Source: a virus. From it: a stretch of 23,812 nucleotides of DNA. The position numbers and the translations under genes are program-made. How positions within the stretch are numbered: the stretch's first letter is position 1; each line of letters starts with the position of its first letter. Below are positions 5,258-22,517 of this stretch, piece by piece. The notes under the pieces were generated by a model. The model saw nothing but the letters and a program-made list of their open reading frames with translations. It had not been told where the DNA came from and ran no database searches. Location of the stretch: positions 1 through 23,812 of IMG/VR virus record IMGVR_UViG_3300026519_000064, one strand, 5' to 3'.

Positions 5258-5286
5258 TTGACATGTCCAACATGTCGTTTAAGAAT
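5258..5286 (+). promoter_or_regulatory. Candidate promoter with palindromic operator before the AAA gene
   Basis: A TTGACA (5258-5263) is followed 17 bp later by AAGAAT (5281-5286), a weak -10. A perfect inverted repeat, GACATGT (5260-5266) and ACATGTC (5270-5276) with a 3-bp spacer, overlaps the -35. The site lies in the 69-bp gap between divergent genes at 5242 (-) and 5312 (+), a natural place for a regulator to act on both. Confidence 0.5.
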
Positions 5287-5311: not shown

Positions 5312-6151
5312 ATGTTGAACCCCACACAAAAACAAATTTGCAACGCTGAAATCACTTTTGAAATTGCACGAAACAATTCGGGCGCGCCGGTTGATTTGAT
5401 TGTTTCACTTATACAAGCTGAAATCGAAAAGCGCAACAAGGGTGAGATGATTAAACATGCCGTGACCAAATTGGTCACTCAAATTGTGGGAATGAAACAC
5501 CCTGTTTTGCTTGTCGGCCCTGCCGGGTGTGGTAAAACCACTATCGGCGAACAAGTTGCCAGCGATCTCAACCTGCCGTTTTTCATCACGTCAACAATTT
5601 TTGACACGCACGAATTGCTTGGATTTGTTGACGGACACGGGCAGTATCATTCAACCGCTTTTCGTCAAGCGTTCGAAAATGGCGGCGTTTGGATTGCTGA
5701 TGAAATTGACGCGTGGGACGCCGCCGCCCTGCTCGCCGCAAATAGTGCGCTGGCAAACGGTTTTGCAACTTTTCCAGATTGCCCTAAACCCGTCGTTCGT
5801 CATGTTAATTTCAGAATGATCGGAACTGCAAACACATTCGGTTCCGGCGCGGACAGGCTTTATGTTGGGCGTAATGAACTGGACGCCGCCAGTCTGGATC
5901 GTTTTGCAACTGTTGATGTTGACTATGACCCTGTAATTGAAATGAATGTGTGCAATTCAAACATTGAATGGCTTGAATATGTCCGTGAAGTTCGTTCAAA
6001 TGTTGAACGTTTGAAAATTCGCCATGTTGTTTCGACCAGAGCCGTGGCGATGGGTTCAAAAGCGCTGGAAAATGGTATTGATCTCAGAACCGTCTGCAAT
6101 TTGTACTTGTTCAAGGGGATGAGTAAAAACGACCGCGAAAGAGTGGAATGA
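5312..6151 (+). CDS. MoxR/CobS-like AAA+ ATPase
   Basis: This is a 279-residue AAA+ ATPase of the MoxR/CobS (AAA_5-like) type. Visible motifs: Walker A GPAGCGKTT (residues 69-77), Walker B VWIADEID (about 126-133), sensor-1 GTANT (171-175) and an arginine-finger candidate in LDRF (196-199). Relatives pair with a VWA-domain partner to remodel proteins or insert metals; in phages the substrate is generally unknown. The ATG at 5312 has only a weak AAGTGAG upstream. An internal ATG at 5447 has a better Shine-Dalgarno (AAGGGTGAG) and would leave 234 residues with Walker A intact. The helical first 45 residues look protein-like, so the longer form is kept. The VWA-like partner candidate lies at 6695-7612, separated by a two-gene cassette. 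Confidence 0.85.
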   Translation: MLNPTQKQICNAEITFEIARNNSGAPVDLIVSLIQAEIEKRNKGEMIKHAVTKLVTQIVGMKHPVLLVGPAGCGKTTIGEQVASDLNLPFFITSTIFDTHELLGFVDGHGQYHSTAFRQAFENGGVWIADEIDAWDAAALLAANSALANGFATFPDCPKPVVRHVNFRMIGTANTFGSGADRLYVGRNELDAASLDRFATVDVDYDPVIEMNVCNSNIEWLEYVREVRSNVERLKIRHVVSTRAVAMGSKALENGIDLRTVCNLYLFKGMSKNDRERVE

Positions 6152-6197
6152 TTGTCAAGTGCTGACACTTGACAACAGGGGCGAAGGCCCCTATAAT
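6152..6197 (+). promoter_or_regulatory. Consensus sigma70 promoter with operator palindrome
   Basis: TTGACA (6169-6174), exactly 17 bp, then TATAAT (6192-6197): a perfect consensus promoter. A perfect 10-bp inverted repeat, TTGTCAAGTG (6152-6161) and CACTTGACAA (6166-6175) with a 4-bp spacer, covers the -35. A second 6-bp dyad (AGGGGC / GCCCCT, 6177-6192) fills the -35 to -10 spacer. Such a strong, operator-covered promoter directly after the AAA stop (6151) probably serves the small gene and the HTH gene downstream, with the HTH protein as the likely repressor (inference). Confidence 0.82.
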
Positions 6198-6243: not shown

Positions 6244-6498
6244 ATGTCTGGATTTTCACATTGCTTTACAGGGTCTTGGAGAGACGGGCAAATGGCCCCG
6301 GATTGCGGCCATTTGGTTATAGTCAGCTTTGACCAGAGGAACCATGCTTATTTCATTGAGCAATCCGATTATGACGATTTTATTGACTGGGTTGCAATAC
6401 AATGGGGGAGAGCCGATAATTTCCAGAGGGATGATGAGAATTCACTCGATTATCTGGAGAGGATCGGCGTCACAATCTCAATTAGAGACTGGTTGTGA
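6244..6498 (+). CDS. Small acidic protein of unknown function, moron-like
   Basis: This is an 84-residue unrecognised protein beginning MSGFSHCF, rich in Asp and Trp, with no membrane segment. The ATG at 6244 is chosen because it follows AAGGAAAT at good spacing and lies 46 bp downstream of the -10. An upstream TTG frame would run through the promoter itself. All six arginines use AGA or AGG, whereas the late genes mostly use CGN, so the gene was probably acquired separately. It overlaps the HTH gene by 4 bp (GTGA), so the two are co-expressed. A first gene plus a downstream HTH protein behind a palindromic operator resembles HigBA-type toxin-antitoxin order, but the protein lacks any recognisable toxin motif; this is only a hypothesis. 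Confidence 0.7.
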   Translation: MSGFSHCFTGSWRDGQMAPDCGHLVIVSFDQRNHAYFIEQSDYDDFIDWVAIQWGRADNFQRDDENSLDYLERIGVTISIRDWL

Positions 6499-6695
6499 AC
6501 AAGCTCAAACAGGCCCGGCAAAAGCTGGGTCTTACACAAAAGCAACTTGCGGCCATGCTGGACACCGATGCCCAGTCGGTGCGGCGAATGGAGATGCCGT
6601 CAAGTGCCAGCACATCACGAACACCACCTCCGCGGGCTAACCGGCTCATCGATGCATACCTCGAAGGCTACCGACCCAGAGATTGGCCGGAATAA
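6495..6695 (+). CDS. XRE-type helix-turn-helix DNA-binding protein
   Basis: This is a 66-residue protein with a clear XRE helix-turn-helix at the N-terminus: KLKQARQKLGLTQKQLAAML then DTDAQSVRRME, residues about 3-34. It is followed by a proline-rich linker and a short helix ending in GYRPRDWPE. The start is a GTG overlapping the previous stop. The ATG of the next gene overlaps its TAA (TAATG), so three genes are translationally linked. It is the obvious candidate to bind the palindrome at 6152-6175 and autoregulate. It is too short to be a CI-like repressor with a cleavage domain; a Cro-like or antitoxin-like role is possible. Confidence 0.82.
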   Translation: MNKLKQARQKLGLTQKQLAAMLDTDAQSVRRMEMPSSASTSRTPPPRANRLIDAYLEGYRPRDWPE

Positions 6696-8613: not shown

Positions 8614-8976
8614 TCAACGCCGAACAATCAGGACGTGCGCAACAACGGTTCCTGATGGTGGTTTTGACATGATTTGCACAATGTTGTGTCGTTGTCCGTT
8701 GATAATCAATAAATCTGAAATTTCAGGCGTTGCGGCGGTGTTCACCGCCAGTGTAACTTGAAAATCTGTTGCTTTTGCCAAACCACCATCAACATATTTT
8801 TTTGAAACACCTTGCACGGTGCCTTTCATGGTGTGAGTTACTTCCGTTGGTGTGCCGGGTCTTTCAGGAGGTCCGGCACCGGGTGTAATTTTTATCAGTT
8901 CAATGACACCCTGATTGAAATCAGTCAGAATGTCGGTTGCTATTTTTTGCACGGACCCGTAGTCAAATTGAACCAT
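8614..8976 (-). CDS. Head closure-like protein
   Basis: This 120-residue protein begins MVQFDYGSVQKIATDILTDF, has a central 'MKGTVQGVSKKYVDGGLAKATDFQVTLAV', then 'ISDLLIINGQRHNIVQI' and ends 'SGTVVAHVLIVRR'. The pattern (short N-terminal helix, TPG-type proline-rich loop, small beta barrel, final 'P.G..V.Y.L..R' strand) is that of head closure/head-tail joining proteins related to SPP1 gp16 and HK97 gp7. The ATG at 8976 follows AAAAGGTGG at good spacing. It sits next to the adaptor gene in order, apart from two intervening plus-strand islands. The assignment is by pattern, without a decisive motif. Confidence 0.68.
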   Translation of the reverse strand: MVQFDYGSVQKIATDILTDFNQGVIELIKITPGAGPPERPGTPTEVTHTMKGTVQGVSKKYVDGGLAKATDFQVTLAVNTAATPEISDLLIINGQRHNIVQIMSKPPSGTVVAHVLIVRR

Positions 8977-9044
8977 TTTAACCACCTTTTAACTTGTTTG
9001 GTCTAGTTCTAGCACTGCCTCAAAACAACGTAAAGGTGAAACTG

Positions 9045-9251
9045 TTGAACATTCCAACCGTAGTGAAATATGTAAACGATCACAAATCAGATGGGTTTGA
9101 TAAAGACGAATTGGCAATCATTCTCATTCTGAACCGTGATTTTGATCGGGTTTTTATCGGAAAGCATTTTGAAACAATTTTTCTGTTGACTAAAAACAAT
9201 CATCGCTCTATTGTCGCAGCGCCTGAAAATTTTAATCACAACGAAAGGTGA
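9045..9251 (+). CDS. Small protein of unknown function
   Basis: This is a 68-residue unrecognised protein (NIPTVVKYVNDHKSDGF... EDELAIILILNRDFDRVFIG type). No ATG lies in the right place. A TTG at 9045 is proposed because AAAGGTGAA, the same Shine-Dalgarno used by the next gene, ends five bases upstream; a GTG at 9036 would overlap that site. The reading frame stops 4 bp before the ATG of the next gene, so the two form one unit. The body alternates hydrophobic strands and charged loops, like a small alpha-beta domain. No promoter was recognised upstream. Its reality rests on RBS, spacing and lack of overlap with other genes. Confidence 0.6.
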   Translation: MNIPTVVKYVNDHKSDGFDKDELAIILILNRDFDRVFIGKHFETIFLLTKNNHRSIVAAPENFNHNER

Positions 9252-9618: not shown

Positions 9619-9652
9619 CTTAACCGATTGAAATTTTCGGCGGACCATAGAA

Positions 9653-9683
9653 ACACGGGGTTTAACAACCCTGTGTTTTTTTT
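9653..9683 (+). terminator. Rho-independent terminator ending the 9045-9618 unit
   Basis: ACACGGGGTT (9653-9662) pairs with AACCCTGTGT (9667-9676) with one G-T wobble and a 4-nt loop, followed by a run of eight T. It is oriented to stop plus-strand transcription and insulates the next promoter at 9697. Confidence 0.88.
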
Positions 9684-9696
9684 ATTGAAATAACTG

Positions 9697-9757
9697 TTGA
9701 CATGATTGTTTGAATATGGTTTTATGTTTTCATTGAAACACAGACAGGAATTAAAAA
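9697..9757 (+). promoter_or_regulatory. Phage promoter box, copy 1
   Basis: TTGACA (9697-9702), 17-bp spacer, TTTTAT (9720-9725). TTGAAT lies at +13 and TTGAAACA at +36 from the first base of the -35. An ACAGGAA ribosome-binding site then leads to the ATG at 9758. Nearly the whole stretch recurs in inverted orientation at 21783-21721, and its spaced motifs recur at 13042. Confidence 0.78.
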
Positions 9758-10006
9758 ATGACCAACACTTTTTCAAAATGGATTGAAGCGCTGATTTCCG
9801 AAAAAGAAATTAACACCGACCAGATCATCACTGTTGAAGGTGCTTCGGGTTCCAACATCATGCCCCTGTCAGCCGTGATTGACGCAATCAAAAATGCAAA
9901 CACCAACGAACAGCAACAAATCAAATCAATGCTGACCCGCTTGGATTTCGCAAATGCGCCGATTGTTCCATTCTTCAAACATCTGGCGCAAGCAATTGCG
10001 ATTTGA
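9758..10006 (+). CDS. Small protein of unknown function
   Basis: This is an 82-residue unrecognised protein. It begins MTNTFSKWIEALISEKEINTD, continues with 'GASGSNIMPLSAVIDAIKNA' and 'QQQIKSMLTRLDFANAPIVPFFKHLAQAIAI', and appears mostly helical and soluble. The start is certain: ACAGGAA lies nine bases upstream within the repeated promoter box. It is a single-gene unit between a terminator (9653-9683) and a hairpin (10019-10049). Sharing its promoter and RBS with the operon that starts at 21721 suggests the same expression time as the methyltransferase group, probably early or middle (inference). Confidence 0.78.
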   Translation: MTNTFSKWIEALISEKEINTDQIITVEGASGSNIMPLSAVIDAIKNANTNEQQQIKSMLTRLDFANAPIVPFFKHLAQAIAI

Positions 10007-13041: not shown

Positions 13042-13100
13042 TTGACCACACCAATTGAATGATTTACAACAATGTTATTGAAACATTTAGCACAGACGAA
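13042..13100 (+). promoter_or_regulatory. Phage promoter box, looser copy 3
   Basis: TTGACC (13042-13047), 17 bp, TACAAC (13065-13070). TTGAAT lies at +13 (13055) and TTGAAACA at +36 (13078), exactly the phasing of the boxes at 9697 and 21783. CACAGACGAATT follows, resembling the RBS region of the other copies. It faces the cluster of small plus-strand genes. Confidence 0.68.
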
Positions 13101-13120: not shown

Positions 13121-13312
13121 ATGATGGCCGGAAGTTGGTTTATAATTCGCAAATCCGATGGTGAGTTGATGTTTGAAACATTCAACTCCAAATTGGTCAA
13201 AGCACTTAACGCTGAAAAATATGTTGCAGAAACCGCATTGAATTATTTGAGTGCTCAAAATCATTCAATTCAATTGCATGATATAATGACCAATGAATGG
13301 TGGACCAAATGA
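13121..13312 (+). CDS. Small protein of unknown function
   Basis: This is a 63-residue protein beginning MMAGSWFIIRKSDGELMFETFNSK, followed by a helix ('LVKALNAEKYVAETALNYLSAQ') and ending NEWWTK. It is unrecognised. Two adjacent ATGs (13121, 13124) are possible; GGAG lies 12 bases upstream. A six-codon leader frame (ATG 13104, MELLSE) stops across the start, so coupling is possible. The opening 'WFIIRKSDGELMFETFN' resembles the opening of the next two small proteins ('YLIWNTATNEVTTQ', 'FVIWDCSTRAAIVQ'), so distant paralogy is possible. It is first in the island governed by the promoter at 13042. Confidence 0.65.
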   Translation: MMAGSWFIIRKSDGELMFETFNSKLVKALNAEKYVAETALNYLSAQNHSIQLHDIMTNEWWTK

Positions 13313-13837: not shown

Positions 13838-13970
13838 TTATCTGACTAACCGAAACACGGGCGCAAAGACAACCCAGATTCTTTATTATCGCGGTAAAAC
13901 ACCAATGTGCGCCCGGTTCAATGGATTTTTTGAATTAAATCAATTGAAATTATTTTTGAACAATTGTTGA
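13806..13970 (+). CDS. Small protein of the same set, member 3
   Basis: This is a 54-residue basic protein: MFNILKIKRIDYLTNRNTGAKTTQILYYRGK, then 'ARFNGFFELNQLKLFLNN', ending in Cys. The ATG at 13806 lies just after the GAAAGGTTTAATACT segment that encodes RFN of member 2, the same arrangement as at the previous junction. An earlier ATG at 13764 would deepen the overlap. The order 'YLTNRNTGAKTTQ' resembles 'YLIWNTATNEVTTQ' of member 1, and an 'ARFNG' is again present. It is short and unrecognised, so confidence is moderate. Confidence 0.52.
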   Translation: MFNILKIKRIDYLTNRNTGAKTTQILYYRGKTPMCARFNGFFELNQLKLFLNNC

Positions 13971-14018
13971 CATGATCTGAAACGGCGTCTCATGTGCACC
14001 CGGCTGTTCAGATGATTC

Positions 14019-19284: not shown

Positions 19285-19302
19285 CATACGCATGCAAGCG
19301 AT

Positions 19303-19577
19303 TTGTTCAACAAAATCAATGGGTTATTATTTTTTAATTTTAAGCTGTTGATTTTGTTGAACAATTTCGAACGGTAATTTTTTGGACTAATTTTAATTTT
19401 ATTTAACAATTTCAATGATTTAACTTTTTTATCTAATAAAATCAACAACTTCCATGACATTGCAAAATTGTTCAACAAAAACAACGATTAACCATGACTT
19501 AACCGTGAGTTAGCCATAGGATTTATATATCATGGTTTTCTAATATAAAGACTTAACTTTTTGTTTTTGTTGAACAA
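19303..19577. repeat. Four TTGTTSAACAA dyad repeats
   Basis: Perfect 11-bp dyads occur at 19303-19313 and 19468-19478 (central C), and at 19354-19364 and 19567-19577 (central G). All are embedded in longer A/T-rich similarity (TTTTGTTGAACAATTT and its reverse complement), so orientation alternates along the region. They look like binding sites for a dimeric replication or partition protein. Confidence 0.75.
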
Positions 19578-19651
19578 TTTATCATAAAAAAGTTACAGAA
19601 CCGTAATAACCATAACATTCTAATGCTAGAGTGAGAAATAATATATAGATG

Positions 19652-19677
19652 GTGTAATTGTGTAATTGTGTAATTGT
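19652..19677 (+). repeat. Three tandem GTGTAATT-type 8-mers
   Basis: The 8-bp unit TGTAATTG (read as GTGTAATT) is repeated three times head to tail directly before the G-rich block. Single-base register is ambiguous at the ends. Confidence 0.75.
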
Positions 19678-19707
19678 GGGTGTGGTGGGGTGAGTGAGGG
19701 TTAGGGG
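19678..19707 (+). other. G-quadruplex motif
   Basis: Four G-runs, GGG (19678-19680), GGGG (19687-19690), GGG (19698-19700) and GGGG (19704-19707), are separated by loops of 6, 7 and 3 nt. This satisfies the canonical G3+N1-7 rule on the plus strand. It is the only G-rich block in an AT-rich region. Confidence 0.7.
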
Positions 19708-19800
19708 ATGTCATGGTTATTGCGGTTAGACGGTTGACATATATCAATTTAGACGAAATTTGTCCAATACAATCAACAACTTAACTTTGTATATTAGCAA

Positions 19801-19824
19801 ACCATGACATATGAATGTCATGGT
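19801..19824. repeat. Perfect inverted pair of the ACCATGACAT iteron
   Basis: ACCATGACAT (19801-19810) and ATGTCATGGT (19815-19824) are exact reverse complements around ATGA. Related single copies appear at about 19452 (CCATGACATT), 19492 (ACCATGACTT), 19605 (ACCATAACAT) and 19709 (ATGTCATGGT), making this a dispersed iteron family. Confidence 0.75.
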
Positions 19825-19998
19825 AGTTATTGAAATCATTGAATAAAAAAGTTAACCCTTTGAAATTGTTGACCTTTTTCAGGTCGCGGTTAGGTTGCAG
19901 TTGGGTTGCGGAAGTCATTGAAAGCATTGAATAAAATTAAAAAACTGATTGAAATCATTGACTTTTTTCAGGTCACAGATGTTACAGTTGGATGTTGC
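19823..19998 (+). repeat. Degenerate direct repeat, period 88-89 bp
   Basis: The block starting GTAGTTATTGAAATCATTGA (19823) is repeated as GAAGTCATTGAAAGCATTGA (19912). Inside each unit a TTGAAAT..TTGAC(C/T)TTTTTCAGGTC segment recurs (19860 and 19949), followed by a GTT-rich tail. Two copies in tandem, diverged but clearly related. Confidence 0.75.
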
Positions 19999-20020
19999 CA
20001 TTTTGTTCTCATTATAAATT

Positions 20021-20080
20021 ACATAAAATTACATAAAATTACATAAAATTACATAAAATTACATAAAATTACATAAAATA
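20021..20080 (+). repeat. Six tandem 10-bp repeats (ACATAAAATT)
   Basis: Five perfect copies and one with a final A run without gap from 20021 to 20080, preceded by a partial unit. A 10-bp period puts an A-tract on the same helical face at every turn, which favours intrinsic bending. Confidence 0.92.
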
Positions 20081-20108
20081 AAACCGGATGATCTTTTAAA
20101 TCATCCGG
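20075..20108 (-). terminator. Rho-independent terminator after the methyltransferase operon
   Basis: CCGGATGAT (20084-20092) pairs perfectly with ATCATCCGG (20100-20108), 7-nt loop. On the minus strand it leads into TTTTATTTTATG. It closes the operon running from 23812 or 21721 to 20194. Confidence 0.85.
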
Positions 20109-21619: not shown

Positions 21620-21721
21620 TCACACCGCCCATGCGATGAGCATTAAAACCCACAACAACCATAGAGAAGATAAAGTCGAGGCGACGACCAACACCATCAT
21701 TTTAATTCTGTTTACGGTCAT
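21620..21721 (-). CDS. Very small membrane peptide
   Basis: This 33-residue peptide, MTVNRIKMMVLVVASTLSS..., has one hydrophobic segment covering nearly all of residues 8-33 after a short basic N-terminus. It is real rather than a chance frame because it follows the repeated promoter box and its RBS ACAGGAA exactly as the gene at 9758 does, and because the next gene starts one base after its stop. It is the first gene of a four-gene operon. Function unknown. Confidence 0.7.
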   Translation of the reverse strand: MTVNRIKMMVLVVASTLSSLWLLWVLMLIAWAV

Positions 21722-21783
21722 TGTTTCGATTCCTGTTTATGTTTCAACAAGAATATAAAAACACATTCAAACAATCATGTCAA
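21722..21783 (-). promoter_or_regulatory. Phage promoter box, copy 2
   Basis: TTGACA (21783-21778), 17-bp spacer, TTTTAT (21760-21755), with TTGAAT at +13 (21770) and TTGAAACA at +36 (21747), then ACAGGAA before the ATG at 21721. It is nearly identical to the plus-strand copy at 9697-9757 over the whole length, including the ribosome-binding site. Confidence 0.78.
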
Positions 21784-22098: not shown

Positions 22099-22517
22099 TT
22101 CGGAAACCCTCTTGTTACTTCAAACGCTTCAATCAAGTGCTGAGTAATTGCTTGGATTGCACATGCTTCCATTTCGCGACCTGGCGAAGTTTCACCAATA
22201 TGTTCTTGAACCGACTGCCAGACGTGAACGGCTTCATGCACAATCACCCCGATAATTTCAGCCCGTGAACGCGACCCGACATCTCCAACGGTTGCGATAC
22301 ACACAGTTTTTTTATCTTCTGACAATTCGATCATGTGACCGTTGGTTTCAGGATACGGTTCGTTTTCAAGCCCTAAAAACTTCATGTGTTTGTCCCATGA
22401 TTTTTTATTTGGACAAAACCCGTAAAACAACGGTTGCCACCCTCTTTCACCCCAAACAATCCCTGTGTGTCCTGTTGATTTCTTCACATGCTTGCGAAGT
22501 TTTTTATTAGACTTCAT
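22095..22517 (-). CDS. HExxH metallopeptidase-like protein
   Basis: This is a 140-residue protein with a zincin motif, VIVHEAVHVWQ (HEAVH, about residues 97-101), followed by conserved-looking acids in 'GETSPGREMEACAIQAI', where the Glu in REME is a likely third zinc ligand. The basic N-terminus (MKSNKKLRKHVKKSTG) may contact nucleic acid or an acidic partner. Overall it is similar in scale to small phage or SprT-like zincin proteins. Start: the ATG at 22517 lies within the end of the upstream helicase gene with AAGGATCAAGGCT before it. Substrate unknown. Confidence 0.72.
   Translation of the reverse strand: MKSNKKLRKHVKKSTGHTGIVWGERGWQPLFYGFCPNKKSWDKHMKFLGLENEPYPETNGHMIELSEDKKTVCIATVGDVGSRSRAEIIGVIVHEAVHVWQSVQEHIGETSPGREMEACAIQAITQHLIEAFEVTRGFPK

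Follow-up and report, generated by a model that had tools for sequence, protein, structure and literature searches.

Three intergenic boxes in the window (the whole 23,812-nucleotide stretch of viral DNA analysed here) are likely to be copies of one reiterated promoter-plus-leader cassette that would serve an early, or middle, expression class. The class of boxes itself is real and bears signs of selection. Its copies, their fixed spacing, the phage-specific versions in related phages and the link to homologous genes are all directly seen. In its composition it would be a host-sigma70-type promoter class, in which the spacer and the first-transcribed bases are conserved and which mostly precedes small genes lying opposite the late genes; it is probably early. 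The boxes and their surroundings are as follows.

9649 to 9680, plus strand: terminator-like stem-loop directly before box A, from a consensus scan only.
9697 to 9757, plus strand: box A, with -35 TTGACA (9697-9702), TTGAAT (9710-9715), -10 TTTTAT (9720-9725), TTGAAACA (9733-9740) and Shine-Dalgarno (SD) AGGA (9746-9749).
9758 to 10006, plus strand: gene after box A, 82 aa, phrog_6004, no assigned function.
13042 to 13085, plus strand: box C, with TTGACC (13042-13047), TTGAAT (13055-13060), TACAAC (13065-13070) and TTGAAACA (13078-13085).
13121 to 13312, plus strand: gene after box C, 63 aa, phrog_25603, no assigned function.
21722 to 21783, minus strand: box B, with -35 (21783-21778), TTGAAT (21770-21765), -10 TTTTAT (21760-21755), TTGAAACA (21747-21740) and SD AGGA (21734-21731).
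21729 to 21754, minus strand: predicted hairpin of box B, with the SD in the 3' arm and the 5' arm mostly ahead of the expected start.
21620 to 21721, minus strand: open reading frame after box B, 33 aa, hydrophobic (MTVNRIKMMVLVVASTLSSLWLLWVLMLIAWAV).

The sequence-only reading had claimed that boxes A and B agree over about 65 bp, and this is borne out: A (9695-9756, plus strand) and B (21785-21724, minus strand) align without gaps over 62 nt at 84% identity. They are equal at 52 of 62 positions, whereas the best 62-nt inverted match in 60 dinucleotide shuffles reached 40/62. Over its opening 21 nt, TGTTGACATGATTGTTTGAAT, the match is perfect (21/21). Outside the boxes the likeness falls to about chance, with 18/60 positions in common upstream and 22/60 downstream. 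Counted over 63 nt, the two boxes differ at 11 positions, 9 of them transitions, and the 19-mer is found at two sites only in the window, even at three mismatches. The layout that had been described, with TTGACATGATTGTTTGAAT, TTTTAT at 17 nt, TTGAAACA, ACAGGAA and ATG, is what both loci read; the order is TTGACA, 17 nt, TTTTAT, TTGAAT at +13, TTGAAACA at +36, ACAGGAA and ATG. The same reading was also correct that the genes after A and B are unrelated.

A search for further copies, named there as a possible refutation, was run on the window and uncovered a third copy, so that the claim was not refuted by it. The pattern TTGACA-N7-TTGAAT-N17-TTGAAACA, which comprises 20 positions common to A and B, is matched at 19 of 20 positions at 13042 on the plus strand, where box C reads TTGACC-N7-TTGAAT-N17-TTGAAACA. 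The next-best sites in the window score 15. Outside the pattern words, C agrees with A at 6/24 positions, which is about chance; conservation is thus confined to the three words and the distances between them. The window is AT-rich (45% GC) and TTGA words are abundant in it, which would favour a chance likeness between two AT-rich promoters, but the shuffles refute this and leave it a negligible probability: they gave at most 40/62 against 52/62, and none of 300 shuffles reached 18 against the 19-20/20 observed. A separate site at 13967-13986 on the plus strand, TTGACATGATCTGAAACGG, has the TTGACATGAT of boxes A and B and lacks the rest of the pattern.

All three boxes have a TTGACA-like -35 element (TTGACA in A and B, TTGACC in C) and a -35/-10 spacing of 17 nt. 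Their -10 hexamers are weak compared with TATAAT (TTTTAT in A and B, TACAAC in C), and A and B did not pass a sigma70 consensus scan. Boxes A and C oppose the late genes, and B lies on the late-gene strand. The gene after box C heads a plus-strand island that is flanked by the genes for the scaffold and the major head protein. No match to phrog_25603 was found in the relatives, where a control likewise matched nowhere, and a family match for the 33-aa frame after box B was sought and not found. A peptide-pattern search of viral_contigs gave no confirmed relative of the 82-aa box A protein; a profile search found relatives in G001 and G020, and tblastn gave relatives from mycobacteriophages and Enterobacteria phage FtMidnight, at 42-47%. 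This phrog_6004 protein is a wide-ranging phage protein of no assigned function. The FtMidnight relative comes after DNA primase.

The window is an entire virus entry of 23.8 kb that is classed as linear, which often denotes a fragment. Its minus-strand genes include terminase, portal, scaffold, head and tape measure genes, and it also encodes a C5 methyltransferase and a fragment of a primase with DUF5906. Among named phages, the Rhizobium phages P106B and RHph_X2_24 (Rigallicvirus; 56 kb) are nearest, with a TerL about 52% identical, and their gene orders also have reversed islands among the structural genes. No close DNA relatives were found among phages, and the window has no DNA-level similarity to P106B or X2_24. 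It represents part of the genome of a phage whose relationship to Rhizobium phage P106B is distant. About half of the genome may be missing, which makes a true whole-genome count of the boxes impossible.

Boxes of related phages have a common layout of TTGAC, 17 nt, a -10 element, a short leader, an SD and ATG, with a spacer that is specific to each phage. Such repeated boxes of their own occur in G001, G009, P106B, X2_24 and HMSP1-Susan, and those of the first four read as follows.

G001, five copies: TTGACCATCGCAACAACCATCGCTAT then TTAAC at 27964, 29051 and 29385, with a variant at 20001 and a shortened copy at 22306.
G009, seven related copies: a different sequence, TTGACGACCACCGGGCGCTAATGTAGTGTGTATGTAACGAAACAA.
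P106B and X2_24: TTGACGC-N4-T-N3-AAACG type, with TTGAAACA in register in one copy each.

A reversed-sequence control for the G001 and G009 boxes gave no comparable score, and control seeds reached at most 24/45 with one exception, a 45/45 repeat in G007. Every box in G001 and G009 faces opposite to the late genes. The first pairwise test gave no strong promoter-like pair in P106B, X2_24, G003, G004, G007 and G023, so that clear boxes are not in every relative; those of P106B and X2_24, which this test missed, were recognised afterwards by inspecting candidates. Spacers resemble each other (at least 9/17) in 17 of the 88 pairs taken within a genome, compared with 34 of the 1742 taken between genomes (Fisher p 3e-11, the pairs being non-independent). 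The G001 homologue of the box A gene (48%) is box-driven too, and its promoter is unlike A, yet itself repeated. Together with two G001-G009 pairs (38% and 45%), it makes up the homologous small-gene pairs between box-bearing phages, and in this small sample a box of differing sequence precedes both members in 3/3. The shared expression class proposed in the sequence-only reading is supported by these reiterated boxes on homologous genes in relatives and by the in-register third copy.

Several observations were made alongside these. In the Sinorhizobium phage HMSP1-Susan (L057), a spacer repeat of the AATAAACCGCAATGTTCCATAA type at 31405, 43608, 44269 and 45247, all on the minus strand, is unannotated in the record. 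G009 (contig L016) encodes at 8727-9083 on the minus strand a small tandem-repeat protein, NLPGVVSLPELAACT, with a box-like promoter upstream and GAAAC in register. A boxA-like antitermination element, prompted by TCTTAACA in G001, was dropped because the window lacks TCTTAACA. The exact 19-mer has one match in viral_contigs, in L003 beside a prophage CI-like repressor gene, and seven bacterial matches in genome_contigs, five of which are one Planococcus/Planomicrobium sequence. These outside matches look like chance or unrelated sequence, since GAAAC is in register in none of them. The exact spaced pattern has no match in viral_contigs.

When the boxes are aligned on TTGAC, the TTGAAACA of the window and the AACGAAAC of both G001 and G009 are in register, with GAAAC starting at offset 38. 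In the relatives, counted without the window, G001 and G009, GAAAC occurs 12 times at this offset, the average per offset being 4.25 (Poisson p 0.0015); clear promoter-like cases are in P106B, X2_24, HMSP1-Susan, L009, L037 and G002. The top positional words among 143 candidate promoters are AAAC at 39 and GAAA at 38, partly from within-genome copies counted repeatedly. With similar promoters clustered, the GAAAC peak is modest, at 13 against about 4 expected (p 3e-4, uncorrected for many words and offsets). The host control, R. etli plasmid p42f, offers 9 to 117 promoters, too few for a firm judgement that GAAAC is absent from host promoters. A typical sigma70 start would fall at about offset 35, so GAAAC would occupy roughly positions +4 to +8 in the RNA. 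Because TTGAAACA lies at the expected transcript start, it may be an initially transcribed or leader element rather than an operator.

An RNA hairpin common to all boxes was rejected by folding. Box B folded from offset 28 gives -8.3 kcal/mol (z -3.75), and from offset 35 its hairpin is gone. A and C (z 0.5 and 1.0) and the G001 boxes show no such hairpin clearly, and a box B-like geometry is predicted in P106B, X2_24, HMSP1-Susan, L038 and L043. In L043, a more distant phage, two promoters (2561, minus strand, and 11611, plus strand) have a GGTTTCC discriminator that pairs with the SD (GGAGACC), a start-in-stem geometry. Such a geometry would allow a translational switch, in which transcripts that read through from upstream have their SD hidden by the hairpin, whereas those begun at the box are missing its 5' arm and are translated; the conserved leader would then be the hairpin loop and 3' arm. 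T4 genes e, soc and 49 provide a precedent (PMC3014915). The loss of the box B fold from offset 35 and the like geometry in five relatives fit this idea, as does the setting of each box: B starts 3 nt past the stop of a co-directional upstream gene, A is preceded by the terminator-like site, and C has no co-directional gene ahead. In addition, z below -2 is commoner among 135 candidates when they are folded from offset 28 (11.9%) than from offset 35 (2.2%). The missing hairpin in A, C and the G001 boxes speaks against it, and a co-directional neighbour is associated with an anti-SD arm as a trend only (61 candidates; 8/37 against 1/23, Fisher p 0.07; rank test p 0.24). As an explanation of the boxes, the switch is doubtful.

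Binding of a phage regulator to the non-promoter parts of the boxes, as proposed in the sequence-only reading, is plausible. As the explanation of the boxes, regulator-bound promoters, with the spacer TTGAAT and the TTGAAACA at the start as putative phage repressor or activator sites and the spacer of each phage co-evolving with its own regulator, fall somewhat short of an even chance. The spacer, unread by sigma70, is the most conserved part within the genome (21/21 nt in A/B), and spacers change between phages though the homologous genes remain box-driven. Activation of the promoter would be in keeping with the weak -10 elements, and a small HTH protein is encoded at 6495-6695. On the other hand, A, B and C have no clear common dyad, the C spacer has TTGAAT alone in common, and spacer identity is also obtainable by duplication alone. 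Plain duplication would make A and B recent paralogous cassettes, carried with small inserted genes and not sharing regulation. Transitions predominate among the A/B differences (9/11), as under neutral drift from a single ancestor, and phages commonly have morons, small genes with promoters of their own that are inserted among the structural genes. However, box C retains just the three words, at a fixed distance from one another, phages whose spacers are unrelated have GAAAC in register, and homologous genes in different phages have each phage's own box, which makes duplication by itself unlikely. A composite view is less probable again: a small-gene regulon is conserved between phages while its recognition sequence is replaced in each lineage by regulator and operator turnover, with a fixed GAAAC at the 5' end and an anti-SD arm silencing read-through RNA where this is likely to occur.

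The favoured reading, the reiterated promoter-plus-leader cassette, suggests the following course, in which promoter activity, timing, start site and regulator are predicted from sequence. Host RNA polymerase with the housekeeping sigma would recognise TTGAC and, 17 nt further on, the weak -10, and would begin transcription about 7 nt past the -10. The transcript would begin around ATTGAAACA and have a short leader with a Shine-Dalgarno site. New copies may arise by duplication of the cassette, after which selection would hold their likeness, either through one phage regulator that acts on all copies or because the same promoter strength, escape and leader are needed. Each phage of the group retains several copies with a spacer sequence of its own, and small accessory genes, often in islands opposite the structural genes, would be co-expressed apart from the late genes. 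The boxes provide a sequence handle on the early or accessory regulon of a little-studied phage group whose named relatives infect rhizobia, and they predict which uncharacterised small genes are co-expressed. They also offer a test of how promoter families remain uniform inside one phage and nevertheless diverge from phage to phage.

Elsewhere in the window, a perfect dyad GACATGT-CCA-ACATGTC lies within another TTGACA promoter (5258-5286, plus strand, TTGACATGTCCAACATGTCG), precedes a CobS/MoxR-like ATPase gene (5312-6151) and looks operator-like. A second dyad, TGTCAAGTG-CTGA-CACTTGACA (6153-6197, plus strand), lies upstream of the small HTH gene and overlaps the -35 of a promoter at 6169 that is a perfect TTGACA-17-TATAAT. 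The stretch at 19300-20085 is AT-rich and non-coding; inverted repeats of the TTGTTGAACAATTT type are numerous in it, and near 20016-20079 it has a 10-bp repeat in tandem, AAATTACATA. It is possibly a replication origin.

Reiterated intergenic promoters are already known as a kind, and for the rhizobial phage group they are apparently undescribed as far as checked: a search of the open-access literature, which misses most subscription papers, turned up no account of boxes like these from rhizobial phages. In cluster K mycobacteriophages, the reiterated intergenic ESAS/SAS sequences lie ahead of small genes; Adephagia has seven 46-47-bp ESAS copies with SigA-like -35 and -10 elements at 17-18 bp, the ESAS consensus varies by subcluster, and homologous genes retain the element across phages (PMC3203893, PMC11373665). 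Like ESAS, the boxes occur as several intergenic copies per genome before unrelated genes (three in the window, five in G001 and seven in G009) and are kept with homologous genes across relatives (3/3 pairs, a small sample). ESAS also contains an imperfect inverted repeat of 15-17 bp and is linked with the 13-bp SAS GGGATAGGAGCCC (PMC3203893, PMC11373665), whereas A, B and C have no common inverted repeat (a hairpin in B only) and no SAS GGGATAGGAGCCC, and the phages and hosts are unrelated. Since these specific features are absent, the boxes would work like ESAS but are not ESAS. Halovirus HF2 similarly has 58- and 29-bp intergenic repeats within one genome, and all nine that were tested had promoter activity (PMC8707807); its repeats resemble the boxes in being intergenic and reiterated within one virus genome, but HF2 is an archaeal virus with archaeal promoters. 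In the T4 gene e, soc and 49 leaders, the SD is hidden in longer transcripts and free when transcription starts inside the stem (PMC3014915). The hairpin geometry of box B fits that of gene e, but T4 relies on its own late promoters and most boxes here, A and C included, have no hairpin. The closest likeness in the phage group itself is to P106B and RHph_X2_24, which share with the window the reversed gene islands, repeated boxes of their own and TTGAAACA in register, and differ in spacer sequence.
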